DNA from: Bdellovibrionales bacterium
Lineage (GTDB): Bacteria > Bdellovibrionota > UBA1018 > CAIMNF01
Reading direction: 5' to 3'
Length of the DNA stretch: 64,000 nucleotides
Assembly: GCA_947502835.1 (NCBI GenBank)
Contig: CANNBJ010000003.1
Coordinates: 372,001 to 436,000 of the forward strand
Shown: piece by piece, positions 45,298 through 51,334 of the stretch
Numbering within the stretch: position 1 is the first letter of the stretch
Layout: each line of letters opens with the position of its first letter
Made by a program: the position numbers and the translations under genes
The notes under the pieces: model-generated
Seen by the model: the letters and a program-made list of their open reading frames with translations, nothing else
What the model was told of the DNA's origin: nothing
Database searches by the model: none

Positions 45298-45355
45298 GAC
45301 TTGATTTGGTATTTCAGGGTTGCAAGTCAGTCAAGCCATCGTTAACCTCGGCCCC

Positions 45356-46360
45356 ATGAAATGGCTTTTCCTCTGCCTTGCCGCAGCCGGCTTGACTCTC
45401 GCAGGGTGTACGCGGTCCAAAGACGCGGGGCCCTCGCTCGGGATTCTCAGCTATTCGAGTCTCGGTTCCTCGGGAGGCTTTCTTCCCGGGGTCGCGGAGC
45501 GGTTTAAACAGCAGAGCGGGTGTTCGCTTCGCCTCGAAAGCACTCTTGGAGCCACCCAGATGGTTTCGCTGCTTTCGGATCGTGGACTCAGGGGCACGAT
45601 TGATGTGGTGATGGGGGTGGATGAGCTTCTGCAAGAGCGCTTGAAGGGGGAGTGGGTGCAGGATGAATTTCCCGAACTCAAGCTTCGGGAGAGCCTTCTT
45701 CCCTTGCTCTCGGATCGGGTTCGTCCCGGCTGGATTCCGATTGATTACGGAGCCCTGACCTTCATCTATCGGAAGTCCGCGTGGAAAGGCGTGGTCCCGC
45801 CCAGGGCTCTTCGTGATCTCCTCAGGCCTGAGTTCCGGAAAAAGTTCATTCTCCAGGACCCGAGGGCCTCCTCGCCCGGGATGCTTTTCTTTTTGTTTTC
45901 GCAGGATTCCTTGAAGATTCCGGAGTTGCGAAACTCCTGGCTCACCCTTGCACCGAGCTGGGACTCAAGCTACCAGATGTTCCTCTCCGGAGATGCGCCG
46001 ATGGTTTGGAGTTACCTGTCTTCGCTTGCCTATCATGCGTCCAAAGGGGAGGGCGATGAGTATGGAGCGGTGATGTTCGAAGAAGGACTCCCTCTGCAAG
46101 TGGAGGGAATGGGGATCGTGAGACAGGAGCGGGTCAATCCCTGTGTGCGGAAGTGGATCGAGTTCATGATGGATCCACAAGTGCTTCGGGAAATTGCTGA
46201 AAAGCAGTGGATGTGGCCCGCATTCAAGGGGGTGGTCTTGCCCCGTTTCTTCGATCGTGTTCCCGGAGTGCAAAAATCGGCAAAATTCAGGATGGATGTG
46301 AAGACGCTGGATGACCTGCTCTCCCGGTTCGGGAAGGAGATTCGGGATGGGGATCGCTAA
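45356..46360 (+). CDS. ABC importer substrate-binding lipoprotein (thiamine/iron type)
   Basis: 334 residues from ATG 45356. The signal peptide ends in the lipobox LAGC (GLTLAGCT), so the protein is a lipoprotein. The body has ThiB-like patterns: GTIDVVMGVDELL, RPGWIPIDYGALTFIYRK, QDPRASSPGMLFFLF and a closing NPCVRKWIEFMMDPQV. ThiB binds thiamine and its phosphates; related proteins bind ferric iron. No TPP riboswitch fits in the 58-base upstream gap, so thiamine is only a candidate. The permease gene starts inside its 3' end. Confidence 0.8.
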   Translation: MKWLFLCLAAAGLTLAGCTRSKDAGPSLGILSYSSLGSSGGFLPGVAERFKQQSGCSLRLESTLGATQMVSLLSDRGLRGTIDVVMGVDELLQERLKGEWVQDEFPELKLRESLLPLLSDRVRPGWIPIDYGALTFIYRKSAWKGVVPPRALRDLLRPEFRKKFILQDPRASSPGMLFFLFSQDSLKIPELRNSWLTLAPSWDSSYQMFLSGDAPMVWSYLSSLAYHASKGEGDEYGAVMFEEGLPLQVEGMGIVRQERVNPCVRKWIEFMMDPQVLREIAEKQWMWPAFKGVVLPRFFDRVPGVQKSAKFRMDVKTLDDLLSRFGKEIRDGDR

Positions 46361-47768
46361 GCGCTTTCTTTTTGCCATTCCTGCTCTTGCTCTTCTCGCC
46401 TATGTTGTGACGGGAGTGATGTCGCTGGTGTTCTCGGAAGGGGTTCGCCTCCAGAGAGTGGGGGAGCATCTCGCGGACCCTGAGCTTTGGTACACGGTGG
46501 GCCTCACCCTCAAGGTTTCGTTCCTTGCCCTGTTTCTTTCCTGGGTTTTTGCGTGGTTGGTTCTCGTTGTCTTGAAGGGGCGCGGAATTGCGGTGTTCCG
46601 TTTTTTCTCGGTTTTGCCGGGGATGGCCTACGCACTGTTCGTGCTTCTTGTCCTTCGGGCGGTCGGAGCGGAGTCGCCGTACTCGATGGGTTCTGTTTTG
46701 ATCGCATGGGTTCTGGCGGGAACATTGTATCTATGCTCGGGGATTTCCGAGGGAATCCGTGATCTCGGTCCGCGCGGCAAAGAGGCGCTCAGGACCTTGG
46801 GGGCAGGACCGGTGCGCGCGTTCTTCCATCATGAATTTTCGGGCACAAGGCCTTTGCAAGGGGCACTGCTGCTGCAGCAGTTGTGGTTTTTTCTCACGAG
46901 TTTTTCGCTTGTGATGATTCTGGGCGGTGGACCACCCTCGGAGACCCTGGAGGTGGCCATTTACTCCGCCATGAGACTCGGGCAATCGGATGTTTCAAAG
47001 GCGGTTGCGTTGAGTCTCGTGCAGGCGTTGATCCTGATTCTTCTGAGATTCAGCTTGAACCGGCTCGGCTCTGCGAAGCCTGCGCGGGGGATTTCCGAGG
47101 GGTTCGGGGAATCCGGAAAGAAACGCAGTTCCCTGGGAATTTCCGTGGTGATCCTTTTTTGTTTGGGCGGCCTGGTGTTTCTGGGTCCGAAGGTCGGAGA
47201 CGCCCGAGCCTATCTCCGCCCGCTGTTCGTGACTCTTGCCCTCGGGGCATCGGTGTTGGGGGCGACCCTCCTGTTCTCGATCTCGTCGTATGTTTCAGGA
47301 ATCAGGTTTGCCAGTGTGATTGGCTCCTGGTGTTCCCCGCTTTTTCTCTCCCTTGCCCTTTGGAGTTTTTCGGGATTCCTGATTTCCCCTTTTGTGAATG
47401 TGGCCCTGATCCAAACCCTGTTTTTCGCACCCTGGTTTTCACAAATCGTTTTTCCCCTTCTGGATCGTGCCCAGCGCTCTGAAATGGAGGCGGCGCGGGT
47501 GTTGGGTGCCGGGAGGATTCGGGCTTTTTTTGAGGTGGAGTGGCCCAGGATCAGGGGCGGGGTGATCCGGGTTCTCGGGCTGGTATTCGCACTTTCGGCA
47601 ACGGAGGTGAGTTCGGTCCTGTTGTTCTCGAGGGGGGATTTCGATACCCTTGCAAGTCATTCCCAGAACCTGTTTTCAAGGTTCAGGATCGAGGAGGCCG
47701 CTTTCGGAGTCATGGCGATGCTCTTGCTTTCTGCGGTTTCACTCGGGCTCGGGGAGAGGCGCGCATGA
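46347..47768 (+). CDS. ABC importer permease, fused two-domain (ThiP-like)
   Basis: 473 residues with about 12 spans in two halves, each with a binding-protein-dependent transport motif. The first half has GPRGKEALRTLGAGPVRAFFHHEF and the second has AQRSEMEAARVLGAGRIRAFFEVEWPRI (the EAA loop that docks on the ATPase). This fused layout is that of ThiP/FbpB permeases. The ATG at 46347 has GGAAGGAG upstream and overlaps the binding-protein gene by 14 bases; the stop overlaps the ATPase gene by ATGA. The substrate follows that of the binding protein. Confidence 0.88.
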   Translation: MGIAKRFLFAIPALALLAYVVTGVMSLVFSEGVRLQRVGEHLADPELWYTVGLTLKVSFLALFLSWVFAWLVLVVLKGRGIAVFRFFSVLPGMAYALFVLLVLRAVGAESPYSMGSVLIAWVLAGTLYLCSGISEGIRDLGPRGKEALRTLGAGPVRAFFHHEFSGTRPLQGALLLQQLWFFLTSFSLVMILGGGPPSETLEVAIYSAMRLGQSDVSKAVALSLVQALILILLRFSLNRLGSAKPARGISEGFGESGKKRSSLGISVVILFCLGGLVFLGPKVGDARAYLRPLFVTLALGASVLGATLLFSISSYVSGIRFASVIGSWCSPLFLSLALWSFSGFLISPFVNVALIQTLFFAPWFSQIVFPLLDRAQRSEMEAARVLGAGRIRAFFEVEWPRIRGGVIRVLGLVFALSATEVSSVLLFSRGDFDTLASHSQNLFSRFRIEEAAFGVMAMLLLSAVSLGLGERRA

Positions 47769-48439
47769 GAGATCTTGAAATCAGGAACTTCAAGGTTCTT
47801 CTGCCCGGGTTCTCCGTCAGTTGTGATGATCTGCGTGTGTGTCCGGGGGAGTGGCTCATGGTGCGAGCACCGAGCGGATACGGGAAGTCCACCCTGTTTC
47901 GCGGGATCTTGGGCCTTGAGTCAACCGAGGGAGAGGTGATCCTCGGGGGAGCGCGGATGACGGAGGTTCCGGTGCATCGAAGGAATTTCGGAGTTGTCTT
48001 TCAGGAACAATTGCTCTTTCCCCATTTGAACGCTTTGGAAAACGCTCTTTTTGGAATTCGTCTTCGGAGGAGCGTCACAGAAAAGGATCGCAGGAGGGCG
48101 CAGGATGCGTTTGCAGAATTGGACCTCTCCCACCGGATGGATGCGCCTCTTCATGAGCTTTCTGGCGGGGAGCGTCAGAGGATCGCACTCATTCGCGCGC
48201 TCCTCTTTGACCCCGATTTACTCTTGATTGACGAGCCTTTCCGGGGAATGGATGATGCCCTGATTTCAAAGAGCAGGGGACTGCTTGAGCGTCACCTTTC
48301 AACGAAATCGGTTCCTGTGATATGGATTACCCATCAAAACGAGTTCGAGCCGCTCCGCGCGAAAGTGCTGATCGGGGGAGAGTTGAATCATGGTCGTCGA
48401 CATTTCCAATACCATCCTGGGCAGTCTCAAGCGGATTAA
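47765..48439 (+). CDS. ABC importer ATP-binding protein (ThiQ-like)
   Basis: 224 residues. Walker A is APSGYGKST, with Ala in place of the usual first Gly. The Q loop is FQEQLLFPHL, the signature LSGGERQR, Walker B LLLIDEPF, and the switch His lies in IWITHQNE. It powers the preceding permease. The start is coupled to the permease stop (ATGA). Its last 50 bases overlap the first ArsA-like gene, whose own GGGGGAG ribosome site lies within it. A longer in-frame start at 47540 reads through the permease and is rejected. Confidence 0.9.
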   Translation: MRDLEIRNFKVLLPGFSVSCDDLRVCPGEWLMVRAPSGYGKSTLFRGILGLESTEGEVILGGARMTEVPVHRRNFGVVFQEQLLFPHLNALENALFGIRLRRSVTEKDRRRAQDAFAELDLSHRMDAPLHELSGGERQRIALIRALLFDPDLLLIDEPFRGMDDALISKSRGLLERHLSTKSVPVIWITHQNEFEPLRAKVLIGGELNHGRRHFQYHPGQSQAD

Positions 48440-49307
48440 CCTGATTTCCGGAAAGGGCGGCACCGGGCGCACCACGCTTGCCGCATCGATCGCACGGGCA
48501 TCCGCAAAACAAGGCAAAAAAACCCTTCTCATCGAGATCGAGGATGATTCGGGCTGGGACTCGGCACTGGCGAGGAATTTCGGGCTGAAGCATTTCAAGA
48601 TCGAAGCCGAGCCGCTTGAGGCGAATTTGTTCGGGTTGTGTCTCTCGGCCGAGACCGGACAAGAGAAATTCCTCACTTCGTTTCTGAAGGTCCATGCGCT
48701 CAGTCAGATGATCATGGGAAATCAGGGCGTGAAGTGGTTTCTCGAGGGTGCTCCGGCATTTCGTGAAATGGGGTATTTCTACCACCTGCTATTGCAGATG
48801 CGGGGGGATTATGACCGGATCATCATGGATATGCCCGCAACAGGCCACTTCATCGGGCTTGCAAGGTTGCCGAATCTGCTTTTGAAAATGATTCCCTTCG
48901 GACCAATTGCGGATCGAATGAAGGAGGGGCAGCGCTATCTGTACGACGAGGAGATGACCTCTGTTTTCATTGCCACCCTTCCGCAGACGCTCCCGATCAG
49001 CGAGGCCATCGAGCTCAGGGCCGAGATTTCAAAGGAATCCTTGCCGCTCGGGGGATTCATCCTGAATCGCGCACCGTTCAATCCCTTCACGGAAGCCGAG
49101 GAACAGATTCTTTTTTCCCTGAGCCAAAAGAGCAAGACGCAAAACCTGATGGTTGAAATCGAGAGGATCCGGAGATTCCGCGAGGCTCGCAACCGTTTGG
49201 AGCAGGAGATGAAAGGGATTTCGGGTGCCCGGCTCTTTGTCGCACCCGAGGTGTTCCAGCCGGAAACTGAAACGGAGTTCGGATATCGGATCCGGGTACA
49301 GGCATGA
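48390..49307 (+). CDS. ArsA/Get3-like ATPase A with Arg in place of the P-loop Lys
   Basis: 305 residues. The deviant Walker A loop reads SGKGGTGRTT: signature Lys22 is present, but the catalytic P-loop position is Arg27 (CGC at 48468-48470). Further ArsA-like elements are LLIEIEDDSG in the switch I position and IIMDMPATGHFIGL, close to the DTAPTGH switch II motif. No C-terminal membrane span is seen. ArsA-type ATPases dimerise around ATP and may ferry membrane or tail-anchored proteins or metals. The next gene overlaps it by 4 bases and encodes a related ATPase, so a heterodimer is likely. Confidence 0.85.
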   Translation: MVVDISNTILGSLKRINLISGKGGTGRTTLAASIARASAKQGKKTLLIEIEDDSGWDSALARNFGLKHFKIEAEPLEANLFGLCLSAETGQEKFLTSFLKVHALSQMIMGNQGVKWFLEGAPAFREMGYFYHLLLQMRGDYDRIIMDMPATGHFIGLARLPNLLLKMIPFGPIADRMKEGQRYLYDEEMTSVFIATLPQTLPISEAIELRAEISKESLPLGGFILNRAPFNPFTEAEEQILFSLSQKSKTQNLMVEIERIRRFREARNRLEQEMKGISGARLFVAPEVFQPETETEFGYRIRVQA

Positions 49308-50386
49308 CGGGGCCGCTCTCGGAGCTCATTCGATCCAAGCGCTGCATCCTTGTCTGCGGCGGAGGCGGGGTCGGGAAAACAACAATTTCAGCGAGCCTTG
49401 CGATTGCCGCGGCCCGAATCCGCTCGCGTGTCCTTGTGTTGACCATTGATCCATCCCACCGTCTGCTCCAGGCATTCGGGTATCCGGACGCACTTCTGCA
49501 TTCCGGGGGCGAACCGCTTGAGTTGTCTTCCGCGGTGAAAGAGGCCTTGCAGGTTCCCGCATCTGCCGGTCTGTCAATTGCGGTGCTGAATCCTAGGTAT
49601 GTCATCGACGGGATCGTCGATCAAACTCTGAGCCCGTCAAAAGCGGGGAATCTCCGGAAAACTGTTTTGTACCGGGAGATGACCCAGATGATCCACGGTC
49701 TTCAGGAATACACGGCGTATGAATGGGTGACCCGGATGATCTCCGAGGATCGCTACGATCTGATCGTCCTTGACACGCCTCCTGCGTTTCATGCGAAAGA
49801 GTTTTTCAATGCTCCCGGGAAAATCAGGAATCTGATGGAAAGCCGGGTGTTCCAGATTTTTCTTCCCAAAACGGGCTCGTGGTTCAGGTCGATGATTTCC
49901 TTTTCCTGGATCGAAAAACTTCTGGGAGAGGGTTTGTTCCGGGAGAGTGTGCTTTTTTTCGAAACTTTTTTCTCCCTGCGCGACCGCATTCTTGCCCGTT
50001 GTCAGGATCTTGCGGCGTTTTTCAAGAGTGAAACCGTGGGCGTGGTGGCGGTGGGCACACCCGAATTGGCAGCGACGCATGAGCTGGAGGGGCTTGCGGG
50101 GTTCTTGCGCGAGAAAAAGATTCCCCTTCGGGCCATTGTCATCAATCAAGTGGAAATGCCGGATGTGGGCCGTTGGGAGGAAGAGGTTCCACCGGAGTTG
50201 CCTTCCGGATTTCCGGACAAGCTGAAGCAGCTTGCCGAGCACCATCAGGCGCGTTCGGAGCGGAGTCTTGCGGTGCTGGAGCGGCTGAGACAGGGCTATT
50301 CGGGTCTTCCTGTGGTGGCAGTTCCGATGTCCTATTCCGCGGACGGGTTTGTGATCCTTCGAAATAATTCCATTACACTGATTTAA
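49304..50386 (+). CDS. ArsA/Get3-like ATPase B without the signature Lys
   Basis: 360 residues. The P-loop reads CGGGGVGKTT: catalytic Lys25 is kept, but the signature Lys of the GKGGVGKT motif is Gly20. The switch I region is VLTIDPSHRLLQAFG, as in ArsA/Get3 (DPAHSLSD), and the switch II region is VLDTPPAFHAKEF. A hydrophobic helical region follows (about residues 170-250, with SWFRSMISFSWIEKLLG), in the place where ArsA and Get3 bind their cargo. The loss is complementary to that in the upstream gene product. It ends the importer/ATPase operon. Paired ArsA-like proteins such as mycobacterial Rv3679/Rv3680 are a precedent. Confidence 0.87.
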   Translation: MTGPLSELIRSKRCILVCGGGGVGKTTISASLAIAAARIRSRVLVLTIDPSHRLLQAFGYPDALLHSGGEPLELSSAVKEALQVPASAGLSIAVLNPRYVIDGIVDQTLSPSKAGNLRKTVLYREMTQMIHGLQEYTAYEWVTRMISEDRYDLIVLDTPPAFHAKEFFNAPGKIRNLMESRVFQIFLPKTGSWFRSMISFSWIEKLLGEGLFRESVLFFETFFSLRDRILARCQDLAAFFKSETVGVVAVGTPELAATHELEGLAGFLREKKIPLRAIVINQVEMPDVGRWEEEVPPELPSGFPDKLKQLAEHHQARSERSLAVLERLRQGYSGLPVVAVPMSYSADGFVILRNNSITLI

Positions 50387-50431
50387 TTTAATTTGCTTGC
50401 AGTGCGTCTCCGGCTCTGGTACTTGACTCGC

Positions 50432-51334
50432 ATGAATCAACGAATCTCATGGATCAAGGCGATGGCAGTGGTGATCGGAATTGGATGTTCCGGAGGGACT
50501 GCCGTTTCGGCGGTGCGTCCGATGGACCTGAACTCTAAGGACCTTGAACGGGTGCGGGAGGTGATCTCGACCGAGATTCGCGCGGATCTTTCGGAGCATC
50601 TTGAGGAGAATCTCCTGAAGCTTGGCAAGGAAAACGGGGGAGGCGATCCCACCTTCGGCGGGCTTCTGATGGGCGATCCCATGAGTCCGGAGACCCGGGA
50701 TGTGATTGCGGGCGGGCTGTATCAGGTTTTGTTTTCCGCGATGAGGGAGAAGGGCATTACCCTGAGCGAGGCCCGCTTCAAGTCGGCGGTGGGCAAAGTG
50801 CTCGAATATTCCACGCGACTCGGGATTTACCCCTCTGCGCTGACGGTCGGGTACATGGGGCGATTGCAAGCCGGGATTGGCGGTTCGGCGGGGAGCCAGT
50901 TCAATGTGTATTTTGATCACGGAAAGCTGAAGTCGTCCGTGTACTCCATCTACGGGGCTCATGCCGGTTTCGCGGAGATGACCAAGATCCAGTTCTACAT
51001 CTCCTTTTGTTTCGGAACCTGCTTCGGGGGAGACGCCTCGGGGTGGTATGTCGGTCTCGATGCTTGCGGGAGTGCCGGCATCGGGGGTGATTTTTTCATC
51101 GAGGGAGGGATCGATGTCACGGACATGATCAAGTACACCATGTTGGGGCTGCCCTATTCGGTGAAGGATCTGTATCAGTCAAAGGCGATCTACCTCGGCA
51201 TGGGGTTCGATGTGGGCCAGGGAGCCGGGGTTTCAGGGGATGTGTTTTACTACACCCATGACTTCGATTTGCTTTTGATGGATGCGGGAAAAAAGCCGGA
51301 TGCATCCACCTTTCAAAAGATCAGGCTCAAGTGA
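50432..51334 (+). CDS. Exported protein of unknown function
   Basis: 300 residues from ATG 50432. An N-terminal hydrophobic segment (KAMAVVIGIGCSGGTAVSA) looks like a signal peptide; the Cys is not in a proper lipobox. A helical part (LNSKDLERVREVISTEIRADLSEHLEENLLKL) is followed by a Gly- and aromatic-rich C-terminal half, with a Cys cluster FCFGTCFGGDASGWYVGLDACGS near residue 190. This looks beta-rich and may be a small barrel or envelope protein. I find no clear ribosome site. It lies 45 bases after the ArsA-like pair; its last 8 bases overlap the convergent MATE gene. No family is recognised. Confidence 0.6.
   Translation: MNQRISWIKAMAVVIGIGCSGGTAVSAVRPMDLNSKDLERVREVISTEIRADLSEHLEENLLKLGKENGGGDPTFGGLLMGDPMSPETRDVIAGGLYQVLFSAMREKGITLSEARFKSAVGKVLEYSTRLGIYPSALTVGYMGRLQAGIGGSAGSQFNVYFDHGKLKSSVYSIYGAHAGFAEMTKIQFYISFCFGTCFGGDASGWYVGLDACGSAGIGGDFFIEGGIDVTDMIKYTMLGLPYSVKDLYQSKAIYLGMGFDVGQGAGVSGDVFYYTHDFDLLLMDAGKKPDASTFQKIRLK

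Follow-up and report, generated by a model that had tools for sequence, protein, structure and literature searches.

Adjacent BagAB-like ATPase genes of a Bdellovibrionales bacterium and the probable single composite ATP site of their products

We analysed a window of 64,000 nucleotides from a Bdellovibrionales bacterium (assembly GCA_947502835.1, contig CANNBJ010000003.1, forward-strand positions 372,001 to 436,000), in which two adjacent genes, here called A and B, encode ATPases of the Get3/ArsA fold (Table 1). Judging from the distribution of their catalytic residues, the two proteins probably form a heterodimer in which a single catalytic ATP site is composed of the P-loop and switch I of B and of the signature Lys of A. 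Several observations lead to this reading. Only the residues of one would-be site are constant across 230 adjacent gene pairs. The top match of both A and B is the solved complex of Rv3679 and Rv3680 of Mycobacterium tuberculosis. Finally, the two genes overlap translationally in the window and their homologues are naturally fused in another genome of the same order. The composite single-site heterodimer is also the best reading for the whole BagAB-like family, of which the window presents an advanced case: the division of labour between the two genes runs family-wide and goes one step further here.

Both proteins match the Pfam model PF02374 (ArsA_ATPase), with scores (66.8 bits for A, 91.9 bits for B) above the gathering cut-off of 24.3 bits. 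The top NCBIfam models are BagA (NF053622) for A and BagB (NF053621) for B, but the scores of 85.2 and 134.2 bits are far below the respective equivalog cut-offs of 400 and 521. Hence, the pair is BagAB-like and not BagAB proper in the strict NCBIfam sense. The M. tuberculosis proteins BagA and BagB (Rv3679 and Rv3680), named as a precedent in the initial annotation, indeed turned out to be the best matches by both sequence and fold. Among PDB sequences, A is closest to Rv3679 (6bs3_A, E = 5.9e-17) and B to Rv3680 (6bs3_B, E = 1.5e-31). The AlphaFold2 single-chain models (mean pLDDT of 90.1 for A and 88.7 for B) retrieved the same two chains as first Foldseek matches (E = 7.2e-16 and 2.6e-19). 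In M. tuberculosis the two genes are also adjacent, and their products were solved together as chains A and B of the same crystal structure (PDB 6BS3, 6BS4, 6BS5). Being neighbours, with A nearest to Rv3679 and B nearest to Rv3680, the two genes of the window belong to the wider group of BagAB-like two-gene Get3 homologues. Their reading frames differ, those of another pair with Arg in A (L214) being in frame. The ATGA shared by the stop of A and the start of B is expected to couple their translation. We found no further full-length ArsA-type pair in the genome, where the other three PF02374 matches are short and weak.

Table 1. Features of the window discussed in the text. Positions count from the first letter of the window.
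Feature	Position	Strand	Basis or remark
ABC importer genes upstream of the pair	45320..48439	+	Pfam; ATPase overlaps start of A
Importer solute-binding protein	45320..46360	+	Pfam
Importer permease	46311..47768	+	Pfam
Importer ATPase	ends at 48439	+	Pfam
Gene A, BagA-like Get3/ArsA-fold ATPase, 305 aa	48390..49307	+	ORF, PF02374, NCBIfam and PDB matches
P-loop of A, G21-K22-G-G-T-G-R27-T-T	48450..48476	+	has signature Lys22; Arg27 instead of P-loop Lys
Glu51 of A, where the catalytic Asp of switch I would be	48540..48542	+	gap-free offset +30 from P-loop
ATGA overlap, stop of A and start of B	49304..49307	+	sequence
Gene B, BagB-like Get3/ArsA-fold ATPase, 360 aa	49304..50386	+	ORF, PF02374, NCBIfam and PDB matches
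P-loop of B, G19-G20-G-G-V-G-K25-T-T	49358..49384	+	Gly20 instead of signature Lys; has P-loop Lys25
Switch I of B, T47-I-D49-P50	49442..49453	+	D and P constant across all 230 pairs

In Get3, the P-loop Lys grips the phosphates of its own site, in the ATP-bound state the signature Lys extends across the dimer, and the Asp of switch I puts the water in place (PMC10248533). The open reading frames and their codons confirmed the motif residues reported in the initial annotation. The context of the motif in A reads SGKGGTGRTT, with Lys22 encoded by AAG (48453-48455) and Arg27 by CGC (48468-48470), and in B it reads CGGGGVGKTT, with Gly20 encoded by GGC (49361-49363) and Lys25 by AAA (49376-49378). 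Neither protein presents the intradimeric (deviant) Walker A motif, GKGGxGK[ST], which has both lysines in one protein: the P-loop Lys is missing from A and the signature Lys from B, and only the pair combined has the two. Since the same motifs occur across the genus and its sister genus, they are not a sequencing accident. Besides that of the window, nine genomes of the genus yielded the pair, and all of them have GKGG[VT]GR[ST]T as the motif of A and GGGGVGKTT as that of B. In the sister genus, the two motifs are GKGGVGRTT and GAGGVGKTT. Two further genomes of the genus (84% and 87% complete) gave no match to B.

We then placed the pair among its relatives. Loci were collected with A-type and B-type models built from the order, in named genomes, in the phylum of the window, and in the phyla of Myxococcus and of three MAGs (Desulfobacteraceae, Planctomycetota and Actinomycetota). 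This resulted in 230 distinct adjacent A-B pairs from several phyla, whose percentages are not frequencies in nature because best-hit selection favours query-like sequences. The signature position is Lys in all 230 A proteins and in a single B protein, the remaining B proteins having Ser (95), Ala (62), Thr (46), Pro (12), Gly (11) or other residues. The position of the P-loop Lys is occupied by Lys in all 230 B proteins; in A it is Lys (200) or Arg (30) and nothing else. The second P-loop Thr, always Thr or Ser in B, is lost in 57 of the 230 A proteins, where it is replaced by V, A, L, M, I, F or C. A switch I of the form T-x-D-P is found in every B protein and in none of the A proteins. Among the latter, 27 have an Asp at the gap-free offset and 32 have a D-P somewhere in the switch-I loop; a few A proteins may thus keep a displaced switch-I Asp.

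Two observations on individual A proteins and pairs are worth recording. In the order of the window, some A proteins (e.g. L138 and L141-L145) have Val or Ala in place of the second Thr (GKGGVGKTV or TA), which is another route to a non-canonical A pocket. One pair from Planctomycetota (L043, 4707-6164, and L239) is the sole surveyed pair with all four lysines, and the P-loop of its A protein is fully canonical. It is possible that this pair represents an ancestral or a reverted state.

The initial annotation had presented Arg27 and Gly20 as complementary losses, whose co-occurrence as a rule would be support for its interpretation. The P-loops of the 230 pairs led us to reject this rule: the B signature Lys is absent from all 30 pairs with Arg in A, but also from 199 of the 200 pairs with Lys. 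The loss in B is a shared family-wide state, already present in BagB of M. tuberculosis. Found in 229 of 230 pairs, including nearly all those of the Lys type, it is the background on which the change in A recurs. To place the latter, we filtered the A proteins at 85% identity and used the remaining 192 for a tree from which the P-loop was excluded. The Lys/Arg state changed seven times on this tree, which was quickly built, has many open forks and no bootstrap; six of the changes are forced by starred branches, which are less trustworthy in trees of this kind, and the direction of change was not inferred. The A proteins with Arg come from the family of the window, from a clade rich in Myxococcota and from some members of three further families of the same order; they also occur as single members in the Actinomycetota, Planctomycetota and Desulfobacterota sets. 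The replacement of Lys by Arg in A, a recurrent minority state (30/230), would most simply be a later and repeated step. The losses in A and B are real and differ in age; they are not paired events.

Such a scattered pattern raises the question of whether Arg27 matters at all. It may be the product of neutral drift, without functional effect, in a pocket that had lost its use beforehand, an explanation compatible with the single-site heterodimer. The seven changes on the tree are in line with drift, and so is the loss of the second Thr, instead of the Lys, in other A proteins. However, the genus and the sister genus have Arg without exception, and the restriction of this position to Lys or Arg in 230 pairs suggests a need for a positive charge, probably for phosphate binding. 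On balance, we regard drift as rather unlikely, though it deserves to be kept in mind.

Under the preferred single-site reading, A and B would act as a heterodimer of Get3/ArsA-fold (intradimeric Walker A) ATPases. The catalytic site would be composed of Lys25, Thr26 and Thr27 of B together with Asp49 of its switch I, and Lys22 of A would complete it across the dimer interface. In the pocket of A, Arg27 would be joined by Glu51, which stands where the switch-I Asp would be, and by Gly20, which B contributes instead of a signature Lys. Considered jointly, these three losses indicate that the A pocket is most likely catalytically weak or silent. Its role would then be structural or regulatory, and it might still hold a nucleotide. 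The missing switch-I Asp, on which the initial annotation did not remark, is a stronger mark of a weakened site than Arg27. The residues, their conservation, the pairing of the genes, the relation to the 6BS3 complex and the fusion are observations; from them we infer the existence of the heterodimer in this organism, the silence of the A pocket and the ATP cycle. All 30 Arg pairs have a B protein devoid of the signature Lys, and the P-loop of A degrades repeatedly.

It could be argued that the two pockets of the A-B dimer both bind and hydrolyse ATP, with altered kinetics in A, and that Arg27 is a conservative change within an asymmetry that tunes the two sites. Arg is chemically close to Lys, and the cyanobacterial Get3d protein NosGet3d still hydrolyses ATP although its P-loop Lys and switch-I Asp are replaced by Arg and Glu, respectively (PMC10248533). 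The glycines of the A P-loop are invariant, the residue that follows Lys or Arg is Thr or Ser in 230 of 230 proteins, and in 149 of the 230 A proteins no canonical P-loop residue is missing. These figures suggest that the A pocket is kept for something. Moreover, since the Arg27 position tolerates only Lys or Arg and the glycines do not vary, nucleotide binding in A may persist. Hydrolysis is another matter, because the A pocket lacks the Lys, the signature Lys of the partner and the switch-I Asp, the T-x-D-P form of which is absent from the entire set of A proteins. Two active pockets are therefore improbable in our view.

Fusions and two-half proteins provide a further view of the pair. In a genome of the same order and of another family (G015, family f4), A and B are fused in one ORF of 694 aa, read from MSALSEALL (L314 92-2173, G015:C24). 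The fusion has GKGGVGRSA at position 18 and GAGGVGKTT at position 360, i.e. Arg replaces the P-loop Lys of the first motif and Ala the signature Lys of the second, and a Pro/Ala-rich linker lies between the halves. Its B half matches BagB at 241 bits. This is direct sequence support for A and B sharing a complex, coming from a single draft genome in which an assembly error is possible; no other A-B fusion was found among 55 genomes of the order. The same searches also returned six distinct two-half ArsA-type ORFs (seven entries, one of them met twice), all of which keep the four lysines. Hence, the asymmetry is a property of the BagAB-like group and not of paired ArsA domains in general. We had also considered that the pair might be a canonical ArsA and rejected this identity, given that the two-half ArsA proteins are intact in both halves and that the pair matches BagA and BagB. 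A plasmid-borne form of the pair was sought, and only three distant matches were retrieved.

The initial annotation had proposed an obligate heterodimer with a single composite ATPase site. The composite site, formed by the P-loop of B and Lys22 of A, fits the 230 pairs, the 6BS3 complex, the gene overlap and the fusion, but the terms "obligate" and "single ATPase site" were overstated. Two proteins illustrate this: NosGet3d, mentioned above, and McdA, a strong ATPase despite the absence of the signature Lys (PMC6328274). Taken together, they would allow A and B to form separate active homodimers, A in the manner of NosGet3d and B in that of McdA, and the pair would then be two ATPases that are made together; this is quite improbable, because the homologues Rv3679 and Rv3680 were solved jointly as one complex, the A and B genes stand side by side in 230 pairs of several phyla and are fused in one genome, and the signature Lys is invariant only in A and the catalytic residues only in B, a split that separate homodimers do not need.

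Comparison with known systems shows which traits of the composite heterodimer are shared and which are particular to the window. BagB of M. tuberculosis (GAGGVGKTT) lacks the signature Lys, as does B, and BagA lacks the switch-I Asp (VEVEGRQG), as does A. In contrast, BagA keeps both lysines (GKGGTGKST) where A has Arg27. The two-half ArsA and Get3/TRC40 share the fold and PF02374 with A and B, and hold ATP between two facing P-loops. Two-half ArsA has the signature and the P-loop Lys in both halves (six out of six distinct proteins), whereas A and B keep one each. NosGet3d has the same two replacements as A (PMC10248533), but it is encoded by a single gene, is an active ATPase alone and has no partner devoid of the signature Lys. 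The SRP-SRP receptor complex, of the SIMIBI class, is a pseudo-symmetric dimer of related and unequal NTPases in which hydrolysis takes place in one of the two (PMC9599734). These are GTPases of another family within the class, unlike A and B.

These comparisons lead to a broader proposal, for and against which we see the case as evenly balanced. BagAB-like ATPases across bacteria would be heterodimers with a single engine, in which one site is strictly selected and the second pocket is free to decay. In several lineages, including that of the window, the second pocket would have lost its P-loop Lys and would now be a nucleotide-sensing or purely structural half. Our search of the available literature found no mention of a single-site arrangement for the BagAB-like family, which is no proof of its absence. 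A widespread and poorly understood gene pair thereby gains a testable prediction, i.e. one ATP per cycle, in one mixed site. With the lineages that have Arg and with the fused protein, nature has itself performed experiments that tell binding apart from hydrolysis in the Get3/ArsA fold.

If Get3 and BagAB are a guide, the cellular task of the pair would be to handle a client protein or to protect against metabolite stress. Mycobacterial bagAB has a reported link with glycerol and nitric oxide toxicity and turned up in a screen for citrate tolerance (PMC10597346). The M. tuberculosis pair is protective against both toxicities (Whitaker 2020, cited in PMC10597346). The neighbourhood of the pair is less constant than the pair itself. 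The ABC importer precedes it in eight of the 10 genomes of the genus that we compared (window included) and is absent from this place in the sister genus. Hence, the importer is a neighbour and not a defining part of the ATPase pair. At two loci (L306 and L309), two other genes, of approximately 500 and 200-240 aa, are found at the place of the importer. Downstream of B, an ORF at 50393-51334 has no Pfam match and has relatives in four of the compared loci.
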